DNA of 28,677 nucleotides from a virus. The stretch lies in the IMG/VR virus record IMGVR_UViG_3300047563_000087, positions 1-28,677 of that record; one strand, 5' to 3'. This document shows positions 7,113 through 28,634 of the stretch, piece by piece; position 1 is the stretch's first letter, and each line of letters opens with the position of its first letter. The notes under the pieces are model-generated. The model ran no database searches, was not told where the DNA came from, and saw nothing but the letters and a program-made list of their open reading frames with translations. Position numbers and translations under genes: made by a program.

Positions 7113-9503
7113 TCACCTTGGTCCAAAGGACTGCGAACCAGTTGGCGCATGCGCTGCGGCAGCACGTCCTGGAATGCTTGGGTCAACACGACCGTTAAGA
7201 TTGATGCTCAGGCCTGAGACTGCGCTGCTAATTGCGCTGCTCAAAATGCCTGCAGCTGTTTGCGCTCCAGAAACAATACCATCACGCAATGTTGGTTGGG
7301 CGTTTGCAGCGCCTTGCGTCAATCCAGTTTGAATAGGTGTCCGGATGTCGTCGGTTTTCCCAATGGCAGGATGTGAGTCCAGTTCCTTTTGGGTTGCTGC
7401 ATCAGAGAGTTTACGATTCTGTTGATCTTTTTCCGTAAGAGGCTTTTGCTCAAAATACTTGTGCCAGAATGCAGTTTGGTCTGCAATCTCTTTCTCGCTC
7501 TTTGTATCGAGTGCTTTCTTGCTGTCACCAAATATGGATGAATATGCACTTTTTGCTTCAGTTGAAATTACTGAAGAAGCATTCTTGAAGAATTCACCGA
7601 TCGTTTGCTGTGGGCCTTCTTGACGATCACGATCTTTGAACTTGTTCTTGTTCTGGCTATCGGCAATTTCAGCATTCAGCCTTGCGCTTGCAATCGTTTG
7701 GCTATCGATTAGCGAAGTTCCAGTTGCTTTCTTCATCGCAAAGTTCGCAGCAGCTGCTGTTGCTCCAAGCGCAAGCAAAGGCGCAATCGCTGAAGTACCA
7801 GCAACAGATACGCCAGACAGAGCTGTCGTTGCAGCAGCACCTTCCGCGACTATACCAGCGCCGCCTGCTGCCGCACCTGTTGCCTCTGCAGCCGTTGCAG
7901 CCGTACCAGCGGCAGCGCCTCCACCACCGAATATGCTGGAAAGGCCGCCCCAAGCCCAGCCAGCTGCCTTTAGCGAAGCGATAACGCTAATCAAACCAGC
8001 GCCGCCCAAAAGGCCGCCAGCCGCAACCTTTCCGGTTGTGCCGTTATTGGTAACGAATTGCGCAACGCTGCTGAGCGAACCAGACACAGCATCAAGAGCA
8101 GGAATGAAGATGTCCTTCAAAGACGTTGCAGCCTGTCCCAATGAGTTCTCCCATTGGGACTCAACTGTTGCGATTGCGACATTGGTGCTGTTCTTCATTG
8201 CTTCTTTGATGAAGCCTGAATCGGTCCTCATATTCGGATCTAGACCAGTGTCTGTTTCGCGCTTTAGCTCAAGACGTTTGTTCAGCAGCTCTGAGAAGAT
8301 TGCATCTTTACGAGCTGAGAATCCCAACTTGTTCAACCAAACGCCGACAGCCTCAGCATTGTTTACGTCAACACCCTTCTTTTCAAGAGCAGGAATGACC
8401 TTGTCAAGAACATACTTGAGCGGATTAGACGTGATAAGCTGTGCGTCGTTTGCGACGTATGATTGGCCATACATCTTGCGACCTTTGCTGTCGCTGCCAG
8501 TTTGAACGCGCTCAATATGTCCCAATCCAAGATCAACAAGCGCCGCCTTGGCTTGGGCTGATGCTTGACCGCTCAAGCCCTTGATTAGTTGGTTAATGCC
8601 TGCACCTGCACGGTCTGGCCCAATTTCACGAGCCAGAATTGCAGAAGACATGAAGCCTTCGTCGCTCAACGTCAAACGCGAAGCACCAAGATTTCGATCC
8701 ATCGTACGGATTGCGTCTGCGTCAAGCATTTTGCCGCCGCGCATACCCAACCGCACCATGATGTCAATCATGTGGTCAAATTTAGCAGTGTCGATTTGGC
8801 CTGTCTTTTTGTCGATAATGCGGCCAGTTGAGTCTGCGACTTTAACAGCCTGCTCGGCAAGGTGAACAGCATCTTCTGCAGACTTGCCTTGAGACATGTA
8901 CAAATCTGCAAGCCGCATTGAACGTTCGGAAAGCTCAATGCCGTGAGCAGCATTAAGTTGGCCTGTTGCAGGATCCTTCCCAGACATCAAGGTGTTTTCT
9001 GTCATCATGCTCTTCATCTGAGCAATGGTGAAAGAAGGATTTTCCTTAGACATTCGAGCGGCAGCTTCTTCGATTGCCTTCTCGTTGTCTTTACCAACTT
9101 GCGCAAGGGTCAGATTGACGTTGCTTTTGTCAGCGTCTTCCATGCCCTTAGACATGCCATGAATAACAGCATGGGTGATAGTTACAATCGCGGAATGAAT
9201 GATCATTCCTTTTGCGACTTCCCAAGCGGTCGGGCCGCCAAAGCTAGCGCCGCCTCCACCGCCTGGGCTTTTGGGTGGGCCTTGGATTCCGCTTGCAGAC
9301 TTCTTCAAGACGTTGAGCTTTTCGTTTGCGCGGTCAACAGAATTGATAAAGCTCTCCAACCCACGCGACTTCACATTGATATCGATGCCTTGCGACAAAG
9401 CCTTAAGGGCCTTGTTCAAATCAGAAGCAGCACGATTGATCTTTGCCATTTTCGGCGAAGCATCGTCTTGTACTGTCATCTGTGCAAGTGCGATAAAGCT
9501 CAT
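7113..9503 (-). CDS. Tail tape measure protein
   Basis: This 796-residue protein is the longest in the tail module. It starts at ATG 9503, overlapping the TGA of the frameshifted chaperone product (ATGA). It sets tail length and is thought to form a channel during DNA entry. The N-terminal region has amphipathic helices (SDLNKALKALSQGIDI, FINSVDRANEKLNVLK). The middle has Gly/Ala-rich hydrophobic stretches (about residues 490-620, for example GKVAAGGLLGGAGLISVIAS and SAIAPLLALGATAAAANFAM) that may insert into the host membrane. The C-terminus has an Ala-rich helical segment. Position after the chaperone frameshift and before the gpN-like gene is diagnostic. The large plus-strand frame over 7636-8505 is a shadow of its Ala-rich part. 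Confidence 0.9.
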   Translation of the reverse strand: MSFIALAQMTVQDDASPKMAKINRAASDLNKALKALSQGIDINVKSRGLESFINSVDRANEKLNVLKKSASGIQGPPKSPGGGGGASFGGPTAWEVAKGMIIHSAIVTITHAVIHGMSKGMEDADKSNVNLTLAQVGKDNEKAIEEAAARMSKENPSFTIAQMKSMMTENTLMSGKDPATGQLNAAHGIELSERSMRLADLYMSQGKSAEDAVHLAEQAVKVADSTGRIIDKKTGQIDTAKFDHMIDIMVRLGMRGGKMLDADAIRTMDRNLGASRLTLSDEGFMSSAILAREIGPDRAGAGINQLIKGLSGQASAQAKAALVDLGLGHIERVQTGSDSKGRKMYGQSYVANDAQLITSNPLKYVLDKVIPALEKKGVDVNNAEAVGVWLNKLGFSARKDAIFSELLNKRLELKRETDTGLDPNMRTDSGFIKEAMKNSTNVAIATVESQWENSLGQAATSLKDIFIPALDAVSGSLSSVAQFVTNNGTTGKVAAGGLLGGAGLISVIASLKAAGWAWGGLSSIFGGGGAAAGTAATAAEATGAAAGGAGIVAEGAAATTALSGVSVAGTSAIAPLLALGATAAAANFAMKKATGTSLIDSQTIASARLNAEIADSQNKNKFKDRDRQEGPQQTIGEFFKNASSVISTEAKSAYSSIFGDSKKALDTKSEKEIADQTAFWHKYFEQKPLTEKDQQNRKLSDAATQKELDSHPAIGKTDDIRTPIQTGLTQGAANAQPTLRDGIVSGAQTAAGILSSAISSAVSGLSINLNGRVDPSIPGRAAAAHAPTGSQSFGPR

Positions 9504-10257
9504 TTCAATTCCATTCGGGCCAGTTTAACTTTGAGCTCAAATTCTTTATGGTGTGTATCTCTAAAGCGAGCAAGTCTAAGAGCAGCAACCTTCAGCGGAA
9601 CATATCGAACATCAGCGCCATTGCTGGAGTGATATTCATAATCGGCAATTCTTTGGGAAAGAGTTGCCGTCAGTTCAAAAAACTTGGCGCAACATCTCGC
9701 ATTATCCCAACGCCATCCCCAACAGTAAGCGCATCAACTGCCCAGCTTGGCAAGGCGAGCATTCCTGCAGGACGAGCAACAGTTTCAATCAGCTTCAAAG
9801 TTTTCATCAGTTGATTTTCTTCAACCAAAACCATTTCAAGCTCGCCATAAGTATTGGCCAGAAATTCAATTTCTTCAATAGGCTTTGCGTTTCCGAACTT
9901 AAGCGGCGTCGCAAGACGATAGACGATCGACTTTGATGTTCCATCATTATCGCTTGGGCTAACGATCTTGCCTGATGGTGATCCATCCTCAATAGCTGCT
10001 TCACTGAGTTGCTTACCAGTCTTAAATGGAAGCTGCTGAATTGACGCATCTGTAAGCGCCGCAGTCTTATCTCCATTCACAAGAACAACTTGTCCCTTCA
10101 TCGCAACACGACGAAGATTGACTTGGAACTTTGAATTTTCTGCAGATGCTTCAGTTGCGTAGTTCGCAAATTTCTTGAAATTGATAGGAGAGATTTTTGC
10201 CTGAGCGTACACGACATCATCAATCGTGACAGGCGAAACGAGGTCAATGGTTTTCAT
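9500..10257 (-). CDS. Frameshifted tail assembly chaperone (TAC-T), 252 residues, by -1 ribosomal frameshifting
   Basis: If ribosomes slip -1 at TTTTTTG (9676-9682), reading continues past the chaperone stop into a frame that stays open for 58 codons. It starts ELTATLSQRIADYEYHSSNG, includes AALRLARFRDTHHKEFELKV and ends MELK at TGA 9500-9502, overlapping the tape-measure ATG. The span of 758 bases plus one re-read base makes exactly 253 codons. In lambda (G/GT), Mu and many other phages the minor frameshift product carries a T domain that recruits tube subunits while the chaperone coats the tape measure. The extension fills the otherwise empty 166 bases before the tape measure and is rich in basic residues, like other T domains. 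Efficiency cannot be judged from sequence. Confidence 0.85.
9643..9682 (-). promoter_or_regulatory. Programmed -1 frameshift signal: slippery heptamer plus stem-loop
   Basis: On the minus strand the zero-frame codons are AGT TTT TTG AAC TGA, giving the canonical heptamer T TTT TTG at 9682-9676. The zero-frame TGA lies in the 6-base spacer (9675-9670). A stem-loop follows at 9669-9643: CGGCAACTCTTT, loop CCC, AAAGAATTGCCG, with 11 of 12 positions paired (one C-A mismatch). Slippery site, spacer and hairpin have the standard arrangement for -1 frameshifting. Confidence 0.87.
9670..10257 (-). CDS. Tail assembly chaperone (TAC), Mu gp41-like position
   Basis: The ATG at 10257 (195 residues) is preferred over a TTG at 10305 that lies inside a hairpin. 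The opening MKTIDLVSPVTIDDVVYAQA and the later block RLATPLKFGNAKPIEEIEFL, ending VGDGVGIMRDVAPSFLN, both look like the 'l..Pi..dg..i.el.l' and 'l...D...l.....FL' ends of Mu-type chaperones, so the protein may hold two related halves. It is larger than the roughly 100 residues of Mu gp41. Chaperones of this class bind the tape measure in the cytoplasm and are absent from the virion. The gene lies between tube and tape measure and carries the frameshift site in its last codons, which makes the role secure even though sequence similarity is weak. Confidence 0.8.
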   Translation of the reverse strand: MKTIDLVSPVTIDDVVYAQAKISPINFKKFANYATEASAENSKFQVNLRRVAMKGQVVLVNGDKTAALTDASIQQLPFKTGKQLSEAAIEDGSPSGKIVSPSDNDGTSKSIVYRLATPLKFGNAKPIEEIEFLANTYGELEMVLVEENQLMKTLKLIETVARPAGMLALPSWAVDALTVGDGVGIMRDVAPSFLN

Positions 10258-10280
10258 TTGTTTTCCGTTTTTCCGTTGTG

Positions 10281-10316
10281 CTGGGTGGTGGGAGTATCGC
10301 GGCAACCACCACCCAG
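10281..10316 (-). other. RNA hairpin between tube and chaperone genes
   Basis: A perfect 11-base inverted repeat, CTGGGTGGTGG and CCACCACCCAG, encloses a 14-base loop. On the minus-strand transcript it lies about 47 bases after the tube stop and 23 bases before the chaperone ATG. No U-run follows, so it is not a standard intrinsic terminator. It could protect the 3' end of tube mRNA or limit chaperone expression. Confidence 0.7.
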
Positions 10317-10363
10317 ACTATACCCTTTCCGCCCAACGGAGAAAAGCTAAAAGGGCATTTTAG

Positions 10364-10783
10364 TTAGGCAGCGATAAGACCGCCAGTTGGCAAGAGTTCG
10401 TCAATAGACAGGAAGGTCATCTTCATGTCAACTTGGTGCGTATCGCTTTGCGTATCGCCAGTTGAATTGCCGTTGATGCCAGTGAACACATCGCCATTCA
10501 GATATTCAATCTGGATGTCAACAGCCGCACAGCCCTGATAGTAAGAGAGCGGAATGCGGATGTCGCGGATCACCTTCAGCTCCATAAGGGCTGAGTCCTG
10601 AACGCGCTTGACGTAGCCGCCAGGAAGCATTTCGGACTTGTGATCGCAGGCACGAATGGTTGGAAGGTCATTCGTTGCGAGCTTGTGACTGATTGGGCCA
10701 ATCTTCAAATTGCGATCGCAATCGTTGAAGGTCATCAAGATGTTCTTGACGCCAATGATGTTAGAGCAGGGATTGATAGCCAT
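10364..10783 (-). CDS. Tail tube protein (Mu gpM-like)
   Basis: This 139-residue protein starts at ATG 10783 behind GAAGGAAATAACC, 16 bases after the sheath stop. The size, the mixed beta pattern (DSALMELKVIRDIRIPLSYY, AAVDIQIEYLNGDVFTGING, HQVDMKMTFLSIDELLPTGG) and the place right after the sheath and before the chaperone identify the inner tube subunit, which stacks as hexamers around the tape measure. Mu gpM is slightly shorter. The N-terminal half has Cys at positions 6, 22 and 46. A strong hairpin follows the gene, which may matter because this protein is needed in many copies. Confidence 0.8.
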   Translation of the reverse strand: MAINPCSNIIGVKNILMTFNDCDRNLKIGPISHKLATNDLPTIRACDHKSEMLPGGYVKRVQDSALMELKVIRDIRIPLSYYQGCAAVDIQIEYLNGDVFTGINGNSTGDTQSDTHQVDMKMTFLSIDELLPTGGLIAA

Positions 10784-10799: not shown

Positions 10800-12302
10800 T
10801 TAGCGGTTGCAGTTATCGAGCATCGATGGCACCAAGGTGGTGGCGATGTTGCCGATGCGTGTTGGCGGGATGTAACGGATTGTCAAGTGCAACTTATTTG
10901 GGTTGCCTTGGCAAGGCGGCATAACGTCGCTGTCGGTCTGGAGAACGATGTCGCTGTCGATGTTCTTGAATTCAGAGAACAGAACGCCAACCTGATCCTT
11001 TGCCCAAGCGCGGATGCTGGCGAGCAGCAAGCGCGGATTGGTTCCGAACACGCCCTTCTTGATGTCGGTGTTCTTGGTGAACAACCCAAGGCCAGCATAT
11101 TCATCAAGTTTCGTTGCAAGGCTGATGCCAGTGCTTGCAGCAAGGCGACGAGAGCTTGCATCGCGGAAGGTTGCATTCGGGCGACCGTTTGCATCGTACA
11201 GATAGTTGGTGACGTCGTTGGTGACGTATGGATTGGTGTAAGTACCAACGCCACCGCCCAATGGCAAGGTCACGACGAAGCCAGCTGCGCGCAACTGGTT
11301 CTGCTCGTCAAAAGTCCAAGGCGAGGTGCAAGAAGAAGGTTGCTTCAAGCAAGAAAGCACGCCATTCAGTCGGCCCTGAATTGAGAGCTCGGGATTGTCG
11401 CAAGAAGAGCAGCAAGACAATGCGCCATAAGCAGCAACCTTCAACCAACCAGCCATTGGGTCAGATGCATTCTGAGCAATGACAGACATCGTTGGAGAGT
11501 TGGTTGCAGAAGCAAGCACAGCTCCAAGCGAGCCTTGCGAATAGCCATAAGCATGACCAAAGCACATGGGCAAGTTGCAATCCCACTTGGTTGCGAGATA
11601 ATCATTCCAGCCCTTTTTCACAGCAGCATCTGGCGACAGCGAGATGAAGCAAGAATAGCAGCAGGTGCCAATGGCGCTTTCGTAATTGATAACAGCAGGT
11701 GCGCCAGCGCCGACGACAGTTTGAGCCTGCGTAACAGTTACGCCAGCAGGTGCCCAGTTTGCGCGGCCAGTCCAGTTATAGATGGCGTTAAGCGAATTGC
11801 CGATAACACCAGCATTCTTTGCAGTCAGCGTGATAACGCCAGCAGCAACTGCGACAGTGTATGGGAAGCTCGCAGGAATTGCAGCAGCAAGATTTGCAGC
11901 AATCGTCGTTGCAGTATCGCCCAATGTAACAGGAACAGACACAGAATAATCGCCATCGATCATGAACAGATCGGCAACGCCATCAGAAGTCGCAGGGCCA
12001 GTAACAGTGAGCGTGTAAGCAGCAACAACAGCCCCAACAGGGTCGGCGCGGCCAATAGCATACAACTCAATGTTGTTCGGGCACTGGCAGAAGATTTTCT
12101 TGAGCGACTCTGCCAAAATGCTGCCAGCGCCAAACTGCGTGTCAACATTGCGGAGGCTCGTTACAGGAACGACTGTGTCAGCAGTCACACCAGTACCAGT
12201 GAATTGGCCTTCAACCAGCACTCGGCACTTGCCGCCGAAATAGTTGAGGCTTGGATCGATGCAGAGGCTAACAAAGCCATCAGCCAAAACGTCTTGTGCC
12301 AT
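10800..12302 (-). CDS. Contractile tail sheath protein (Mu gpL-like)
   Basis: This 500-residue protein starts at ATG 12302 behind AAGGATTAAAATA. Length matches Mu gpL (about 495 residues), and it lies between a DUF2635-like gene and the tube as in Mu-like phages. The N-terminal domain has the typical early strands (VLADGFVSLCIDPSL, GKCRVLVEGQFTGTG). A middle Ig-like segment contains AYTLTVTGPATSDGVADLFM and TIAANLAAAIPASFPYTVAV, the motif seen in sheath insertion domains. The C-terminal part (NPRLLLASIRAWAKDQVGVL, KLHLTIRYIPPTRIGNIATT) resembles the conserved sheath core that makes the inter-subunit mesh. Unusual Cys pairs occur: FCQCPN, IGTCCYSCF, LSCCSSCDN. The sheath contracts to drive the tube through the envelope. 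Confidence 0.9.
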   Translation of the reverse strand: MAQDVLADGFVSLCIDPSLNYFGGKCRVLVEGQFTGTGVTADTVVPVTSLRNVDTQFGAGSILAESLKKIFCQCPNNIELYAIGRADPVGAVVAAYTLTVTGPATSDGVADLFMIDGDYSVSVPVTLGDTATTIAANLAAAIPASFPYTVAVAAGVITLTAKNAGVIGNSLNAIYNWTGRANWAPAGVTVTQAQTVVGAGAPAVINYESAIGTCCYSCFISLSPDAAVKKGWNDYLATKWDCNLPMCFGHAYGYSQGSLGAVLASATNSPTMSVIAQNASDPMAGWLKVAAYGALSCCSSCDNPELSIQGRLNGVLSCLKQPSSCTSPWTFDEQNQLRAAGFVVTLPLGGGVGTYTNPYVTNDVTNYLYDANGRPNATFRDASSRRLAASTGISLATKLDEYAGLGLFTKNTDIKKGVFGTNPRLLLASIRAWAKDQVGVLFSEFKNIDSDIVLQTDSDVMPPCQGNPNKLHLTIRYIPPTRIGNIATTLVPSMLDNCNR

Positions 12303-21705: not shown

Positions 21706-21930
21706 TTATTTCTCCATTAAACGAATAAGCGACAATACTGCATAGCTTGAAGCAGTGCCAAATAAAAGTCCGATTATCAGACCGCGCCAAAAAAGGCAGC
21801 AGCCGCAGTCGATGAAAAAGAAGCCAGAGAATTTTGCCGATGGATGATTTTCGCTTTGGCAGAAGCCTTTAAGGATTGGGAGTTTCATCCCAAGCTCCCA
21901 GACTTTCTCAGACTTTTCCTTCGGTGTCAT
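21706..21930 (-). CDS. Small single-span membrane protein
   Basis: ATG 21930 with a strong GAGGAGCAAAA site gives 74 residues. The longer frame to 21987 lacks such a site. A charged N-terminal half (TPKEKSEKVWELGMK) is followed by a Phe/Cys patch FFFIDCGCCLFW (37-48) and a membrane segment LIIGLLFGTASSYAVLSLI (51-69). It overlaps the upstream gene by 23 bases and forms a membrane-protein trio with the next two genes. A lysis or inner-membrane role is possible but not shown. Confidence 0.7.
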   Translation of the reverse strand: MTPKEKSEKVWELGMKLPILKGFCQSENHPSAKFSGFFFIDCGCCLFWRGLIIGLLFGTASSYAVLSLIRLMEK

Positions 21931-22156
21931 TTTTGCTCCTCGTTGCTCCGGTTCCAAGTGCGCCGAAAGCATAGGTGCTCGCAGCACCTAAGACAAGCAG
22001 GCTTAAATCTTTGAATGTCGAGTCCAAAGGTTGCATCGGATCGGGCAACTTGTTAAATGCGAATAGAATGTGAATTCCACAGAACGTCACAACAGGGAAT
22101 ACACAAATCAACGCCGCAATTATCTTCAAGGCATTGTCTGTGTAGCTGCTTTTCAC
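21908..22156 (-). CDS. Small two-span membrane protein, holin candidate
   Basis: This 82-residue protein has a GTG start overlapping the upstream TGA (GTGA). There are two hydrophobic segments: about residues 10-33 (LKIIAALICVFPVVTFCGIH) and 50-68 (DLSLLVLGAASTYAFGALGT), with a short polar loop between and a charged tail. Size and topology suit class II holins or other small phage inner-membrane proteins. The endolysin is 20 kb downstream, so lysis is only one option. Confidence 0.6.
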   Translation of the reverse strand: MKSSYTDNALKIIAALICVFPVVTFCGIHILFAFNKLPDPMQPLDSTFKDLSLLVLGAASTYAFGALGTGATRSKNDTEGKV

Positions 22157-22497
22157 GTGACAATTCCTTCAGCATTAACAACGTGACGTTCGATAAGCAT
22201 CTTCATGATGCTGTCATAGTTTTCCTTTAGCGTTGTATAGGATGCCTTTAGGATTTCGTGTTCGGCTTTGAGGTCTGCGAACTTTTCCTTGAGTAATTCT
22301 GTTTCTGTATCGGTTGATCCAAACAAGTTTGGCATTGCTGCAGCGCCGCCACCAAGGACGACTCCAAGAACTGTGACAATGATTTCCTTATTCTGGCTCG
22401 GGACTGGGATGTAAGTAAGATATCCAATGATCCCAAGCAGGATGACGAGCATGAGCAGGCTTGCCCAATACTTGCGGATTTCGGTGCGGTTCGACAT
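22153..22497 (-). CDS. Two-span membrane protein with C-terminal coiled coil
   Basis: This 114-residue protein starts at ATG 22497. Membrane segments are at 11-30 (WASLLMLVILLGIIGYLTYI) and 37-58 (EIIVTVLGVVLGGGAAAMPN), followed by LFGSTDTETE and a long heptad-like helix (residues 63-104, LLKEKFADLKAEHEILKASY). Two spans, an 'FGS' motif and a coiled coil resemble some phage holin-like and accessory membrane proteins. Its stop overlaps the start of the next membrane protein. Function is not established. Confidence 0.65.
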   Translation of the reverse strand: MSNRTEIRKYWASLLMLVILLGIIGYLTYIPVPSQNKEIIVTVLGVVLGGGAAAMPNLFGSTDTETELLKEKFADLKAEHEILKASYTTLKENYDSIMKMLIERHVVNAEGIVT

Positions 22498-22781
22498 TTA
22501 GGCTTCCTGCTGTGCTTGGTTTTAGGTTTAGAGGAAGTGGGATGAACCACTTCCTCTAATGTCATAATTGCTTTGCGCCTTGCTTCAATTGCATCCATGA
22601 ATTCACCATACTTAGGGTGCCCCGGATTGCTCTTTAGTACAAGACTGTTGTATTCGCTTAAACCACTGGCGCGGCTGGCGCGGCTGGATCCGGAGCTGGC
22701 GCTGGAGCTGGCGTTGCGGATGGCGTTGGCGCGACTTGAGCTGGAGCTGCGGACGCTGTCAATGAAGGCGGATAAAGACAA
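22248..22781 (-). CDS. Doubtful overlapping frame in the 22498-22657 gap
   Basis: The 160-base interval after the 241-residue gene has one protein-like frame (SEYNSLVLKSNPGHPKYGEF then MDAIEARRKAIMTLEEVV). It has no ATG start: the only upstream start is TTG at 22781, deep inside the previous gene, and downstream it runs on through the next gene. It lies in the -1 frame relative to the 241-residue gene, so it could be a C-terminal extension made by frameshift or separated by an indel. I see no slippery heptamer at the GTG GTT TAA junction. Only the middle 55 or so residues look real. Confidence 0.25.
   Translation of the reverse strand: MSLSAFIDSVRSSSSSRANAIRNASSSASSGSSRASRASGLSEYNSLVLKSNPGHPKYGEFMDAIEARRKAIMTLEEVVHPTSSKPKTKHSRKPKCRTAPKSASIGQACSCSSSCLGSLDILLTSQSRARIRKSLSQFLESSLVAALQQCQTCLDQPIQKQNYSRKSSQTSKPNTKS
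22528..22559 (-). other. Perfect 13-bp RNA hairpin upstream of the membrane-protein trio
   Basis: TTAGAGGAAGTGG and CCACTTCCTCTAA form an uninterrupted 13-base stem with a 6-base loop, ending 30 bases before the ATG at 22497. Neither strand has a following U-run. The stem contains GAGGAAG, but it is too far from the ATG to be its ribosome binding site. It may separate the surface-protein genes from the packaging genes. Confidence 0.7.
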
Positions 22782-23383
22782 TTCATCAGCTTGCCTTTGC
22801 TTGTTGCGGTCGCCGTAGCAATAGCCATAGTGATAGCGTCCACAATCGTCACAGAGCGACAGTCGATATCGCTCTCGTCCAACTTTGGGGCAGCTTCGAG
22901 CGCCGCCACGCGCTTGTCGATTGCATCAACCTTGACGAAGAATGCAGCGATGTTGTTCAGATCAGGATTGTTCTGAATGAAGGTCAACAGAACATTCAAC
23001 TGTTGCAGAGACTGTGCATCAGTCTGCAAGGCAGCAGCGATTTGAGCAGCAGCATCGGCTTTCGCAGCAGCAAGAATGTCAGCAGAATTTACTGCTGGCT
23101 GAGCCGCAATGCCGTCAACTTCCTTCTTAAGGCCATCAACGATTTGCAACACCGTATTCACAGTGGTGTCGGTGTAGTTCTTGAGGTCGGTGTCGTTCTG
23201 CTTGGCTTCGGTGCGCGCGCGATTGATAGCATCGCAAACGTCGCCAGTGATTGAGTCGATAGAGCTTGCAAAGGCAGCAGCAAGAGCTTTCAAAGATGTG
23301 TCGACATCGTTCGGGCCACAGACCATGTCTGAGGCAAGAACAGGAGCCTTCAAGTGATCATTAGTTTCGTCGCGTGCAGTCAT
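22658..23383 (-). CDS. Hypothetical helical protein with Pro/Ala-rich tail
   Basis: This 241-residue protein starts at ATG 23383 behind AAGGAATTTTGA. The N-terminal portion carries MVCGPNDVDTSLKALAAAFA and helices with Ala/Asp heptads (ADILAAAKADAAAQIAAALQ, AFFVKVDAIDKRVAALEAAP), suggesting an oligomeric coiled coil. It ends in a long Pro/Ala tail (APTPSATPAPAPAPDPAAPA). No family recognised. Its place upstream of terminase and beside fibre-like genes makes a structural or fibre-attachment role possible. It is also a position where a small terminase could be sought, but I see no helix-turn-helix. Confidence 0.72.
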   Translation of the reverse strand: MTARDETNDHLKAPVLASDMVCGPNDVDTSLKALAAAFASSIDSITGDVCDAINRARTEAKQNDTDLKNYTDTTVNTVLQIVDGLKKEVDGIAAQPAVNSADILAAAKADAAAQIAAALQTDAQSLQQLNVLLTFIQNNPDLNNIAAFFVKVDAIDKRVAALEAAPKLDESDIDCRSVTIVDAITMAIATATATSKGKLMNCLYPPSLTASAAPAQVAPTPSATPAPAPAPDPAAPAAPVV

Positions 23384-23402
23384 TTCAAAATTCCTTCAAA
23401 TG

Positions 23403-23996
23403 TTACTTGGTTTGCGATGCGAGTTGAGCATTGAGCTGTGCAAGCATAGCCTGAGCAGCGGTCATTGCTGATTGTCCAGGAGGCACCGTTGCGGTTGCCT
23501 GAACAGTTGTAGTCGTAGTGGTGCCTTGTTGGGTTGTGGTTACAGTTGCTGGAGCTTGAGTTGGTGAAGCTTGAGTTGGTGAAGCTGCTTGAGCTGGCTG
23601 AGCTGGCTGAACTGCTGCAGGCTGAGCTGGAGTTGCTTGGGCTGCAGGAGTTGTTGTAACAACTTGGGCTGCGGCTGCGGCTGCGGCTGCGGCTGCGGCT
23701 GCGGCTGCTGCGGCTCGTATAGGTGCATCTTTAACATACTGAAGAGCCTTTGCATCAAGAATTGCTTTGCGCACGACAGGGGTGTCAATCCCCAATCCAT
23801 CACGAATATCTTCAGGAGCGATTCCGACTTTAACAAATGCAGCATGAACGCGGTCAAGCGCCGCATTCTTAGTTGTGTCGGCTGCGCTTACAGAGCTGTC
23901 AACATCAGTTGGCAACTTTGGATTTGGGAGAGGCTTTTGCTTCTCGAAATTGCTTTCGTCAATAGCCGAATTCGGAATTTGAACTTGATCAACCAT
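23403..23996 (-). CDS. Hypothetical protein with poly-Ala and Ala/Pro/Gln/Thr-rich tail
   Basis: This 197-residue protein starts at ATG 23996 behind AAGGTGAAAC. The first 95 residues look folded (ALDRVHAAFVKVGIAPEDIR, then DGLGIDTPVVRKAILDAKAL). A run of 16 Ala follows (23667-23714), then low-complexity APAQPAAVQPAQPAQAASPT and Thr-rich stretches, and a final helix SAMTAAQAMLAQLNAQLASQ. The poly-Ala tract is coded by six tandem copies of a hexamer. Function unknown. The tail may be a flexible linker on the virion or an unstable repeat. Confidence 0.7.
   Translation of the reverse strand: MVDQVQIPNSAIDESNFEKQKPLPNPKLPTDVDSSVSAADTTKNAALDRVHAAFVKVGIAPEDIRDGLGIDTPVVRKAILDAKALQYVKDAPIRAAAAAAAAAAAAAAAAQVVTTTPAAQATPAQPAAVQPAQPAQAASPTQASPTQAPATVTTTQQGTTTTTTVQATATVPPGQSAMTAAQAMLAQLNAQLASQTK
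23667..23714 (-). repeat. GCGGCT hexamer repeat coding for poly-Ala
   Basis: Six perfect head-to-tail copies of gcggct lie at 23671-23706 (plus strand), with degenerate copies at both ends. On the minus strand they alternate GCA and GCC codons and make 16 Ala. The unit is a multiple of three, so gain or loss of copies keeps the frame. Confidence 0.95.
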
Positions 23997-24004
23997 GTTT
24001 CACC

Positions 24005-26080
24005 TTATGCGATTTCAATTCCGTTGATGCATTCCATGTTAAGCCATGCACCAGCACCCAATGCAACGTTGTTGATGCTGCCACCATTGATTGCCCAGAC
24101 TGCAGAAACAACAACTTGAACGCCATTGATGCCGCCGACAGTTGCTGCTTGCAAACGCAAATCAACCAAAAACATCGTTGAAGCTGCATTCGAAGAACCA
24201 TGCGCCAAGAACATATGGTTATTTGTCTGCCCAACTCCTGGAATAAATGCCAGAACATTGCCTGCAGAGATTGTCGTTGCAGCTGTGAATTGCAAAATGC
24301 CTTTTGTACGAAGAACAGGAACATCTTTTTCGCATACAATTCGATAAGCCGCAGGCCAACCAGCATAAACGCCAGCAACATTACCAGCACCAGAAGCACC
24401 AGCAGCAGCACCATAAATGAATGCGCGCCAGCCTTCAGTTGAGCCGATTGTGTCGAGTTGTCCGATTGGGCCTGTTGTCGTTCCAGGAACAAGCCAGTGC
24501 CCCATGAACCAAACGCGGCTGTAAATCTGATTGCCGCCGCCAATGCCTGAGCCACCAAAAGGAGCCGCCGCACCAACAGCACCAGCAGGAGATTTACCAG
24601 CCCAAGTGAATTGTGCAACAAGAATTGCATGAGCAGGAATTGTCTGGCTAATCCCGTGATAACCGATCATCCAACCAGCATCAACAGATGCGTTGCCGCC
24701 CATGTGGGTTGGAGGAACATAATACAGAGCTTCGTATGGCCCCAATGGAATGCCCATGGTTGGATCGACGACGCGAGTGATCGCAGTGTTTCCAAGAACA
24801 GGAATTGCAAAACCGTTTGATGGCATGTTCAACTGAACATACTGAAGACCGTCAGCCTGACCAACATTGCTTGAATAGCCCATGCCAATGCCAGCATAAG
24901 CAGCATCACCGACCCATTTCACAAACACGCCATAAGGATTTGCAAGAACGCCGTTAGCGCCAGCGCCTGCGAAATATGGGTTAGGTGTCCATGCGCACAT
25001 CGCAGTACCATGAGAGCCTTGCTCAGCCATAGACTGACGCGTCACGCGTGCGCGTTGATGCTCTTCAACATCCTGTATGTTCCAGCGGTCACCTGTTGCG
25101 AGGTTAACGCCATTCCAGAAGTGAGTTGAATTTGAATAGCCTTCCTTATAGGCAAAACGGATCCAAGTTGGAGGAACTGTGAAGCCCTGACCATTCACGC
25201 CTGATGCGCTGTATGAAATTGCATGCCAAGTGCCAGTCGTCGTATTCGTCGCAGTTGGGTTCCAATACAAACCTTCGTCCTGGTTCAAATCGAACACAGT
25301 TGCTGTTGCGAGCGAACCGATGACTTCGCGTGGGTCGCCCATCTTAGCAAGTTCAGCAGCAGTCATAACGCGCCAAACGCGGCCAGAGGCAGCACCTGTA
25401 GAGTCATAAACGATCGTGCCTGCAGCAGCATTCGCTTGTGCGCAATCGCTATAGAGAAGGTCTGTTGCAGATCCAGAATAACCTTCCCCAATGCGCAAGC
25501 GCAGCTGACCGATGTAGCCTACAGGATTCGGAGTTGCACCAGAATTTGTAGGAGCGACAAAAAGAACACCGTTGCCGCCCCAGTTGTTATTCTGATCACG
25601 CAAATTGCGCAATTCAGAGACAACAGAAGTCGTTCCCATGTGTCCGGGCATAACGGTGCTGCCATCACCGAGACGAATTTCGTTGACATCAGAGCGCGAA
25701 GCAACCATCACCCAGTTTTCGTCTGGATCAAACTGCTGGGTGTATGGAACAATTAGGAAGTTCGCGTTGATTGTTGAGTTACCAGCCTCAAGCGGCAAGC
25801 GATACCAAAGTGTTTCCCAAGTGTTAAGCGGAATGCCGCCATAGGTGAGCCCAGCAGCAGCAGCCGTAACTGCACGCGCCGCACCGCCAACAACGCTGAT
25901 ATTTGTACCAGCAGCAGGCTGAACGATGTCCCAATAGCCAGAACTGTCAGTGTCAACATGAACGCCAGAGCCAATGATGATGAAGCGGCCATTCCAGCCG
26001 AAGTCACCATTCAGCGATGCCTTGATCATCCCATCAACGCGGAAAACAGCATTGTGGTTTTGTTGCTTATTCAAAGACAT
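24005..26080 (-). CDS. Large beta-rich virion protein, putative fibre/surface protein
   Basis: This 691-residue protein starts at ATG 26080 behind AAGGAAAAATCGCA. It is rich in Gly, Asn and Thr with many short strands and no hydrophobic signal. Segments include NGRFIIIGSGVHVDTDSSGY, NTWETLWYRLPLEAGNSTIN, PYGVFVKWVGDAAYAGIGMG and a C-terminal domain AATTISAGNVLAFIPGVGQT then NGVQVVVSAVWAINGGSINN. LNTWETLWYRLPLEAGNSTINANFLIVPY near the start and GPYEALYYVPP followed by NASVDAGWMIGYHG later look like two related copies of one beta module. Such composition and size are typical of phage fibres or head spikes that contact the host. It is transcribed ahead of terminase rather than with the tail fibre at 440-1540. 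No catalytic motif seen. Confidence 0.65.
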   Translation of the reverse strand: MSLNKQQNHNAVFRVDGMIKASLNGDFGWNGRFIIIGSGVHVDTDSSGYWDIVQPAAGTNISVVGGAARAVTAAAAGLTYGGIPLNTWETLWYRLPLEAGNSTINANFLIVPYTQQFDPDENWVMVASRSDVNEIRLGDGSTVMPGHMGTTSVVSELRNLRDQNNNWGGNGVLFVAPTNSGATPNPVGYIGQLRLRIGEGYSGSATDLLYSDCAQANAAAGTIVYDSTGAASGRVWRVMTAAELAKMGDPREVIGSLATATVFDLNQDEGLYWNPTATNTTTGTWHAISYSASGVNGQGFTVPPTWIRFAYKEGYSNSTHFWNGVNLATGDRWNIQDVEEHQRARVTRQSMAEQGSHGTAMCAWTPNPYFAGAGANGVLANPYGVFVKWVGDAAYAGIGMGYSSNVGQADGLQYVQLNMPSNGFAIPVLGNTAITRVVDPTMGIPLGPYEALYYVPPTHMGGNASVDAGWMIGYHGISQTIPAHAILVAQFTWAGKSPAGAVGAAAPFGGSGIGGGNQIYSRVWFMGHWLVPGTTTGPIGQLDTIGSTEGWRAFIYGAAAGASGAGNVAGVYAGWPAAYRIVCEKDVPVLRTKGILQFTAATTISAGNVLAFIPGVGQTNNHMFLAHGSSNAASTMFLVDLRLQAATVGGINGVQVVVSAVWAINGGSINNVALGAGAWLNMECINGIEIA

Positions 26081-26092
26081 TGCGATTTTTCC

Positions 26093-27298
26093 TTAAACGA
26101 TGCGCCAAGTGTTTGCAGTATTGTCCCAAACGAGCACAACCGACTCACCAGTCACAGCACCATAGGCAGTTGAAGTGCCCAACAAGATCGTATTGCCAGG
26201 AGCACCGTCAATAGGTGCGCTGAAGCCAACACGAGCTGTGAAGAGTGGATTGTTGTCGACGCGCTTGATTGTAATGCGCGTGTTCTGATTTGCGAGCGGA
26301 AGAACAGGCGCAGGCAAGGTAACTTGTACGTTACCAGCGTTCGCATTTACAAACAGAACTTGATCATTAATCAAGTCGAATGTTGCATTCGCGGAAACAG
26401 TTCGCGTTGCAGGTGCGTCAACAAAGTAAGAGAGACGCTTGCGCGGAATCGTTACAACATTGGTGACGCCACCGCTGAATGCGCCAGTATTGGAAACTGT
26501 CCAGCCTTGGAACATATTGTTTGTTCCAGCACTTGGGCCGTCGCAATATGCAGAAACTTCCCAGCGCTGATAATACTCAGCAGCAGGCCAAGTGAGTTCG
26601 AGAACGAGGAAGCCGCCCAAATAACCAGCACGAATTTGCGTCGGTTGATAAGTGCCTTTGCTGACCCAAGCAGTGTTGATGATTGAGCCCGATGGTGCAT
26701 TGTAAGTGTACAACGAGAGCTGCAAATCGATTTCATCAGAAGTGCCGTAATTATAGCCTTTGATGAAGATCGTTGGCATAATCGTGCTATCGATCGGGAT
26801 CGTCGTCGTGATGACTTGATATTGGAAATTGTTGTTTCCAATGTAGGACAAGATCGATTCGTGGTGGAAGCTGATCAGAGGATTAGATGCTTCAGAACCA
26901 AAGTGAACAGTGCCGTCGTGAGCGATGCCTTCGGTCGTATCGTTGGTGCCATCTGGACGAGCCTGAGCTGCGGTCGTATCGCGCCAGAAGTCAGGAGGTG
27001 TTGCGCCAGCAGGAATTCGCCAAGCAGCATTGTCCCATTCAAATGAGGAAAACTGTCCAGGGAACACAATCGTTCCATTCAAAGTGAACGAAGCAGAACC
27101 AGAATTCGAAACAATTACAAACGCACCATTAAGCGCCTGCGTAGGATTTGGCAAGGTGAGTGCCAGACCTGCAGTCGTCTGATTGATTGCGAAGTTTGTT
27201 GCGATGTCGACTGTTGCTGCGGCTGTCCCAATGGGGCCAGAAGCTGCAATGTTCGCAAGCTGAACTTGATCAAAGATCGTGAAAGAATTTACACGCAT
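26093..27298 (-). CDS. Putative fibre/surface protein with repeated beta module
   Basis: This 401-residue protein starts at ATG 27298 behind AAAGGTAAACC. Two terminal segments are alike: ALTLPNPTQALNGAFVIVSN ending FEWDNAAWRI (about 45-94), and VQVTLPAPVLPLANQNTRIT ending LVWDNTANTWRIV (C-terminus). Both begin with 'TLP.P...l.n' and end with 'WDN....WRI', a module common in phage fibre proteins. Between them is a jelly-roll-like middle (IDLQLSLYTYNAPSGSIINT, GFLVLELTWPAAEYYQRWEV). Likely on the virion surface and perhaps receptor binding. Exact place unknown. Confidence 0.65.
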   Translation of the reverse strand: MRVNSFTIFDQVQLANIAASGPIGTAAATVDIATNFAINQTTAGLALTLPNPTQALNGAFVIVSNSGSASFTLNGTIVFPGQFSSFEWDNAAWRIPAGATPPDFWRDTTAAQARPDGTNDTTEGIAHDGTVHFGSEASNPLISFHHESILSYIGNNNFQYQVITTTIPIDSTIMPTIFIKGYNYGTSDEIDLQLSLYTYNAPSGSIINTAWVSKGTYQPTQIRAGYLGGFLVLELTWPAAEYYQRWEVSAYCDGPSAGTNNMFQGWTVSNTGAFSGGVTNVVTIPRKRLSYFVDAPATRTVSANATFDLINDQVLFVNANAGNVQVTLPAPVLPLANQNTRITIKRVDNNPLFTARVGFSAPIDGAPGNTILLGTSTAYGAVTGESVVLVWDNTANTWRIV

Positions 27299-27308
27299 TG
27301 GTTTACCT

Positions 27309-27710
27309 TTACACGTCGATTGTGATGCGAGCAGCCGCCACTGCTACAGGGACAAACAGCGTCACAGAATTTGCAGTTTCAGCAACAACACGCGCCGTGA
27401 TAGTTGCGCCAGTCGCGTTGTCGCGCACTTCAACCTCAGTTGAGAATCCAGCCCCAACAGCAACAGCTCCGAGGTTATGGATGATGACGTTATTTCCAGC
27501 AACGAGCGGCTGAACAATACGGAAGGTGTCAGGCGTTTCAAGCAACTGATGCCAGACTTGCGCAACAGGATCCCACCAAGCATCAGGTTGATTTGTGATG
27601 GTGTTGATATGCATGAACACTTGCGTGTTCGGGCTTGGGATTGTTGCAGCTGTATAAGGGCCAGCTGAAGTAACAAGATGGTCAACAGCCACAGGGCATG
27701 GAATTGTCAT
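27309..27710 (-). CDS. Small fibre-type beta protein
   Basis: This 133-residue protein starts at ATG 27710 behind AAGGAAAAACC. The C-terminal half FRIVQPLVAGNNVIIHNLGA followed by VEVRDNATGATITARVVAET and NSVTLFVPVAVAAARITIDV matches the short fibre-tip module 'f~~~~~~g.n.i~HnLg...v.V.v.d..tg....~~~~~~~~~v~i.f~~~~~~~~v~i'. The first half includes INTITNQPDAWWDPVAQVWH. It may be a fibre tip or a small adhesin made beside the larger surface proteins. Confidence 0.62.
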   Translation of the reverse strand: MTIPCPVAVDHLVTSAGPYTAATIPSPNTQVFMHINTITNQPDAWWDPVAQVWHQLLETPDTFRIVQPLVAGNNVIIHNLGAVAVGAGFSTEVEVRDNATGATITARVVAETANSVTLFVPVAVAAARITIDV

Positions 27711-27719
27711 GGTTTTTCC

Positions 27720-28190
27720 TTATACTGTTGTCCAGCTCACAACAAAACCAACCGCAGGCGTTTGGCCTGCTGGGCCTGATATTGTGAATGGTCCATTTGT
27801 GAATGGGCAACAATCGCAAGACTGGATCTTCCAAGTGAAGCAGCAAGCAATCGTTTCGTTAACAAAGCCAAGCGAATCGGTGATGGTAACAGGGCCATTG
27901 GTAACTGTAATCTCAAGCGAAGTTATATTCGCAGGCGTCACAAAATTGCCACCATTTGAAAAGCCCTTCAGACCTGCAACTTTCGTCATTGAGCAAGGCG
28001 CAACACACGCCCCAGCAGTTGTATTGGATACAGTCGCACCAGCAACAACAACGCCAGCAACGTCTGTAATTACAACTTTCGGTGCACCTTGATTGTCGAG
28101 CGTATAATGGATGACGACAGGGTGAAGAACCCCAGCGCCATCCTTATAGCAGCCGACAACAGAAGTGTTATTGAGGCATGCGTTTGCCAT
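27720..28190 (-). CDS. Hypothetical surface protein, paralog of the upstream gene
   Basis: The ATG at 28190 (156 residues) behind AGAGGGTTGGCCGAT is chosen over TTG 28199 because it aligns with the start of the paralog. The first 55 residues (NTSVVGCYKDG, then VVIHYTLDNQGAPKVVITDV and AGATVSNTTAGAC) closely match those of the gene at 28215-28634. The rest differs: a beta domain with LEITVTNGPVTITDSLGF and a Cys cluster IACCFTWKIQSCDCCPF. No known family. A shared N-terminal anchor with variable tips would suit a set of surface proteins, but this is inference. Confidence 0.7.
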   Translation of the reverse strand: MANACLNNTSVVGCYKDGAGVLHPVVIHYTLDNQGAPKVVITDVAGVVVAGATVSNTTAGACVAPCSMTKVAGLKGFSNGGNFVTPANITSLEITVTNGPVTITDSLGFVNETIACCFTWKIQSCDCCPFTNGPFTISGPAGQTPAVGFVVSWTTV

Positions 28191-28214
28191 ATCGGCCAAC
28201 CCTCTATTGCTAAG

Positions 28215-28634
28215 TTACCAGATGGCCTGAACGCCACGCTGAGCAGCAGTCAGTGGAGGGCAAATGGGGCATTCGCCAACAGTACCAGTCGTCGCATAGG
28301 CGGTGACGCGGTCGAGCTTGAAGTCTGTAACAGTATTCGTCGGAACACCAGTGGTGCTGAACGTGGTGATGACGCGACGAGAAAACTGAACAGCAGTGCC
28401 GTTGGCTTGAACATCGCAAAGATCCTGCCATTCAACCTGTGGAGGAGCAACCTGACAAGCACCCAATGAGGTATTTGCAAGAGTTGCGCCAGCAATCACT
28501 GCACCAGAAAGGTCAGTGATGTGAACTTGGGGTGCGCCATTGTAGTCATATGTGTAGTGGATTGTGACTGAAACTGGAGCAGCACCGCCAGTGTAACAGC
28601 CGACGACAGCAGATGTGTCTTTGCAAGATGACAT
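28215..28634 (-). CDS. Hypothetical surface protein, paralog of neighbours
   Basis: This 139-residue protein starts at ATG 28634 behind AAGGAAAAATC. The N-terminal 55 residues (DTSAVVGCYTGG, then VTIHYTYDYNGAPQVHITDL and AGATLANTSLGAC) are the twin of the downstream gene. The C-terminal part contains VEWQDLCDVQANGTAVQFSR, TVTDFKLDRVTAYATTGTVG and ECPICPP, ending in TAAQRGVQAIW. The last residues resemble the end of the partial gene just upstream, so at least three related genes lie in tandem. Function unknown. Confidence 0.7.
   Translation of the reverse strand: MSSCKDTSAVVGCYTGGAAPVSVTIHYTYDYNGAPQVHITDLSGAVIAGATLANTSLGACQVAPPQVEWQDLCDVQANGTAVQFSRRVITTFSTTGVPTNTVTDFKLDRVTAYATTGTVGECPICPPLTAAQRGVQAIW

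Follow-up and report, generated by a model that had tools for sequence, protein, structure and literature searches.

A relative of Agrobacterium phage Milano with a probable -1 programmed ribosomal frameshift and a lineage-specific candidate stimulator in its tail assembly chaperone gene

In phage lambda, genes G and GT follow a logic in which a common chaperone is accompanied by a rarer form extended by -1 frameshifting, while phage Mu has been reported to use -2 frameshifting (PMC5009743). Phage P2 uses the heptamer TTTTTTG for its E/E+E' frameshift and is reported to do so without a hairpin (PMC3091744). The announcement of Agrobacterium phage Milano describes a putative frameshift product analogous to lambda G/GT (PMC6588377), and in the Milano record the two frames are joined and annotated as the frameshift product of a tape assembly chaperone. 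Because this join is annotated and has been likened to lambda G/GT, the kind of system described below is already recognised in a relative.

We analysed a stretch of 28,677 nucleotides, hereafter the window, for which an initial annotation had claimed a programmed -1 frameshift in the tail assembly chaperone (TAC) gene. The features on which the analysis rests are the following.

1-28,677: metagenomic virus record IMGVR_UViG_3300047563_000087 (the window)
7113..9503, minus strand: tape-measure protein, 796 aa, at the position of the annotated Milano tape measure protein
9500..9676, minus strand: 58-codon extension in the -1 frame, closed by TGA; C terminus of the predicted 252-aa fusion, with a presumed lambda gpT-like role
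9643..9669, minus strand: stem-loop with a 12-position stem, 11 paired, and a CCC loop; putative stimulator, specific to the window genome
9670..9675, minus strand: spacer AACTGA, 6 nt, containing the zero-frame TGA (9672-9670)
9676..9682, minus strand: slippery heptamer T TTT TTG in X XXY YYZ register
9670..10257, minus strand: zero-frame TAC, 195 aa, an open frame from ATG 10257 to TGA 9670, with a presumed lambda gpG-like role
10364..10783, minus strand: tail tube protein, 139 aa, weakly matching PF10618 Tail_tube and phrog_4699 tail tube
10800..12302, minus strand: tail sheath protein, 500 aa (phrog_165 tail sheath, E 7e-54)

The genes are arranged in the order sheath, tube, chaperone, tape measure, DNA-circularisation/hub, baseplate hub, GP46 baseplate and baseplate wedge, and the terminase, portal, protease and capsid genes lie upstream of this block. 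The chaperone gene is thus placed between the tail tube and tape-measure genes, as in G/GT-type systems. The sheath shares 50-53% identity with those of Milano, 7-7-1, OLIVR4 and Synechococcus phage Ssp-JY38 (JY38), and the tape-measure frame has no Pfam or PHROG match of its own. At 21706-28634, most open reading frames upstream of the terminase have no PHROG match at E 0.001, among them a 691-aa frame at 24005-26080.

The window TAC is 33-36% identical to the Milano and OLIVR4 TACs and to a JY38 protein, with E ~1e-21 against the recognised chaperones of Milano and OLIVR4. It has no significant Pfam or PHROG match, and PF10109 (Phage_TAC_7, which holds P2 E and Mu 41) is absent from the record even at E 10; among 31 relatives, five match this family at E up to 0.01 (best 0.0011). 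The structure was predicted with high confidence (pLDDT 95.8). Its best viral fold match is a 251-aa protein (TM 0.85) that, by its length and rank, looks like the Milano fusion. A tail assembly chaperone ranks lower (TM 0.51), Mu FS-gp41 matches weakly (E 0.23), and solved structures, searched by sequence or by fold, gave chance-level matches only. Two tandem copies of the ~90-aa TAC_7 domain were considered as the origin of the 195-aa protein and rejected, as its halves align poorly (hhalign probability ~1-2%).

The ~105-nt gap between the tube and chaperone genes (10258-10363, minus strand) contains two strong hairpins (-40.9 kcal/mol; CTGGGTGGTGG/CCACCACCCAG). Strong hairpins are also present in this gap in Milano, followed there by TTTTGTTTT, in JY38 and in three further relatives (L057, L061 and L043), which suggests an attenuator or processing site that holds tube expression above that of the chaperone.

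At the end of the chaperone frame the codons read AGT TTT TTG AAC TGA, and the anatomy claimed for this site was reproduced in full: the heptamer is in the correct frame at 9682-9676 (gene offset 575), the 6-base spacer at 9675-9670 holds the zero-frame stop, and the 58-codon -1 frame runs from 9676 to 9500, where its TGA (9502-9500) overlaps the ATG at 9503 of the tape-measure frame as ATGA. The fusion has 194+58 = 252 residues, and the stem at 9669-9643 pairs at 11 of its 12 positions around the CCC loop, with one C-A mismatch. The heptamer is the single in-register X XXY YYZ within the 61-nt overlap of both open frames. Such heptamers occur at 20 among 7,080 in-frame positions in the record's larger genes, TTTTTTG once. 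The open -1 frame alone is weak evidence, since 57 open codons have a probability of ~0.035. The +1 frame was rejected as an alternative in the window, being open for just 11 codons.

The conservation of the junction was examined in 57 distinct loci, window included, in which it is readable. These were collected by alignment-based scans; IMG/VR and GTDB scans with the window TAC as a single sequence gave no matches, and no relatives were found in the plasmid collection. The loci share descent, and their counts are not independent. The -1-frame protein is kept in ~57 distinct related loci as a homologous domain, RVAxRVxERVEEYRYYSASAGDxRxLxIxxLxLRxxxFxKVH, and its conservation starts directly past the slip site in the -1 frame of the relatives, while the zero frame terminates in P-x-F, mostly with one to few residues after it. 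The Phe codon and its preceding base read T_TTT in 55 of the 57 loci and T_TTC in two; our slip locator demanded a T before the Phe codon, and a plain codon-by-codon listing gave the same pattern. For comparison, across these genes T stands at 23% of all third codon positions, and TTT accounts for 41% of Phe codons.

The bases that follow are more varied. Twenty distinct loci, the window, Milano, OLIVR4, 7-7-1 and JY38 among them, have T TTT TTN. In 28 the T_TTT is followed by CTN or CAA, in eight a T_TTY stands immediately before the stop (one of these, L050, can also be read as A AAT TTT), and one locus has T_TTC TTG. Because Z_ZZN tetramers are recognised minimal -1 sites (PMC5009743), the group of 28 would most simply slip on tRNA-Phe alone. 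These T_TTT CTN sites (once CAA; 28 loci among L008-L054, L076, L086, L089, L109, L112 and L114) mark a large soil clade that includes a Bradyrhizobium lablabi genome contig (L054) and has a covarying two-tier stem downstream. In L055/L056/L058 (IMGVR_UViG_3300033407_000012) the chaperone gene comes after, not before, the tape measure gene; its -1 extension is conserved, and its site is without T_TTT and may be GGGGGAG. A further locus, L102, has the homologous extension in the +1 (or -2) frame near TTC TTT CCC, not in -1, and may contain a sequencing error because it is a single contig.

These data bear on three explanations that dispense with ribosomal slippage. The -1 frame might be a gene in its own right that yields no fusion, its translation starting independently or through re-initiation, as the annotation of the equivalent stretch as its own CDS in OLIVR4 and the presence of some ATG, GTG or TTG in the -1 frame of many relatives would allow. 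However, the window's -1 frame has no start codons other than an ATG and a TTG, which are 158 and 164 nt downstream of the stop, so that translation from them would miss the conserved domain. In addition, the conserved T_TTT coincides exactly with the frame junction, and protein conservation sets in right behind it; we regard a separate gene as very improbable. Even less probable is transcriptional slippage on the T-run. The window has six T in a row, but most relatives have T4-T5 only (TTTTCTN, TTTTTGA), which to our knowledge is too short for known transcriptional slippage, and both the in-register placement of the site and, in relatives, an RNA stem are conserved. In a metagenomic record one could also suspect that the break stems from faulty sequencing or assembly, or that the gene has decayed, but the same codon is broken in tens of separate records, including those of the cultured phages Milano, OLIVR4, 7-7-1 and JY38, which refutes this explanation for practical purposes.

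Because gene order, TAC homology, the conserved -1 protein, the selected T_TTT core and the lack of a usable -1 start all point the same way, we conclude that the chaperone gene of this contractile-tailed, Milano-related phage almost certainly contains a -1 programmed ribosomal frameshift, as first annotated. We infer the occurrence and efficiency of shifting, the role of the hairpin and the functions of the proteins as follows. Most ribosomes would end at the TGA at 9672-9670 and release the 195-aa chaperone, whereas a minority would pause at T TTT TTG, with the downstream hairpin as the probable cause; both tRNAs would then re-pair one base back and 58 further codons would be read, giving the 252-aa fusion. 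On the model of lambda G/GT, the shared part may bind the tape measure protein and the rarer extension may recruit tail tube subunits.

The compact hairpin begins exactly 6 nt after the heptamer. Its arms are CGGCAACTCTTT (9669-9658) and AAAGAATTGCCG (9654-9643), and its stability is -11.7 kcal/mol, a value reached by one dinucleotide shuffle in 500 (z -4.5) and, over 36 nt, by 2 of 500 randomisations preserving the -1 protein (z -2.6). Around 4% of the record's 36-nt windows fold as stably, and a longer 81-nt piece around the hairpin reached a z of only -1.25. Rfam gave no match within 9400-10400. The hairpin was also considered as an intrinsic terminator and rejected: it is without a T-run, and no terminator was found on that strand. 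Across the aligned relatives the hairpin was not found, with 22.6% of alignment cells pairing, equal to shuffles, and over 36 nt the relatives fold no more stably than expected by chance (mean z 0.03, n=54). A search for a nearer relative with sheath and hub queries yielded a closest sheath of 58% identity and a TAC ~40% identical, too distant to test the hairpin.

Over 90 nt the relatives do show excess stability (mean z -1.35; 21 of 54 below -1.64). Within the largest clade the structure is a two-tier stem of ~63 nt, seen in 27 distinct loci and formed by alignment columns 13-25/63-75 and 37-47/52-62, in which 91.6% of cells are paired and 35 double changes stand against 13.7 (sd 3.6) in shuffles; the signal vanishes when the partner strand is slid. 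Its strongest pair, columns 39-60, occurs as GC, CG, AU and UA with both columns at third codon positions of the -1 frame, and judged from this alignment protein constraint is no explanation for the covariation. A comparable long-range stem (CGRAAGGT with ACCTTTCG) is present in Milano, OLIVR4 and 7-7-1. Inspection of the aligned positions showed the two-tier stem to be absent from the window.

The expectation that heptamer and stem would both recur across relatives therefore held in part: heptamer and -1 frame are conserved, but the window's stem is not present in them, and the hairpin does not qualify as the good specimen of a conserved signal for which it had been taken. Because it is absent from relatives, which hold a different stem, the hairpin is either a replacement stimulator or dispensable. 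The frameshift could be real and the hairpin at 9669-9643 without a role, the heptamer being sufficient as reported for P2, where TTTTTTG works without a hairpin (PMC3091744); its absence from relatives and the equal stability of 4% of the record's 36-nt windows fit this possibility. Its position exactly 6 nt past the heptamer, the 498 of 500 synonymous randomisations that it beats and the structure that relatives also keep there speak against it, and we consider a roleless hairpin unlikely, though well within reason.

More tentatively, and with slightly less than even confidence, we propose that the family keeps the frameshift event while both of its signals, slip site and stimulator, are exchanged. 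The slip site would alternate between a heptamer (two-tRNA), a T_TTT tetramer (one-tRNA) and T_TTY before a stop, with single cases perhaps using GGGGGAG or +1, and the ~63-nt stem of most lineages would have been lost in the window phage, which has the compact hairpin instead. Its members form a natural series that combines one and the same frameshift with varied slip sites and RNA structures, so that the contribution of each signal is measurable. The comparison also favours annotating a frameshift in the chaperone genes of these phages where a classical heptamer is lacking.

Compared with the described systems, the locus resembles lambda G/GT in pairing a common chaperone with a rarer -1 extended form. 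Lambda uses the heptamer G GGA AAG, which differs from that of the window, and no sequence similarity was seen. The comparison with Mu made in the initial annotation is loose, since Mu FS-gp41 is likewise a frameshifted tail assembly chaperone but a -2 shift has been reported (PMC5009743). P2 E/E+E' is the closest mechanistic match, with the same TTTTTTG heptamer and -1 shift between tube and tape measure, and a distant link to the window family through PF10109 is possible; its protein E has 91 aa versus 195 aa, and no downstream hairpin has been reported in P2. Milano gp22/gp23, like the corresponding genes of OLIVR4 and 7-7-1, shares with the window a homologous gene in the same place, a homologous -1 extension and 3 nt to the zero-frame stop. 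The Milano heptamer TTTTTTG is that of the window, whereas OLIVR4 and 7-7-1 have TTTTTTA, and all three differ from the window in their ~35% identity and in a longer-range stem instead of the compact hairpin. Judged from these sequence comparisons, the window would represent an ordinary case of a known phage device, equipped with a lineage-specific candidate stimulator.
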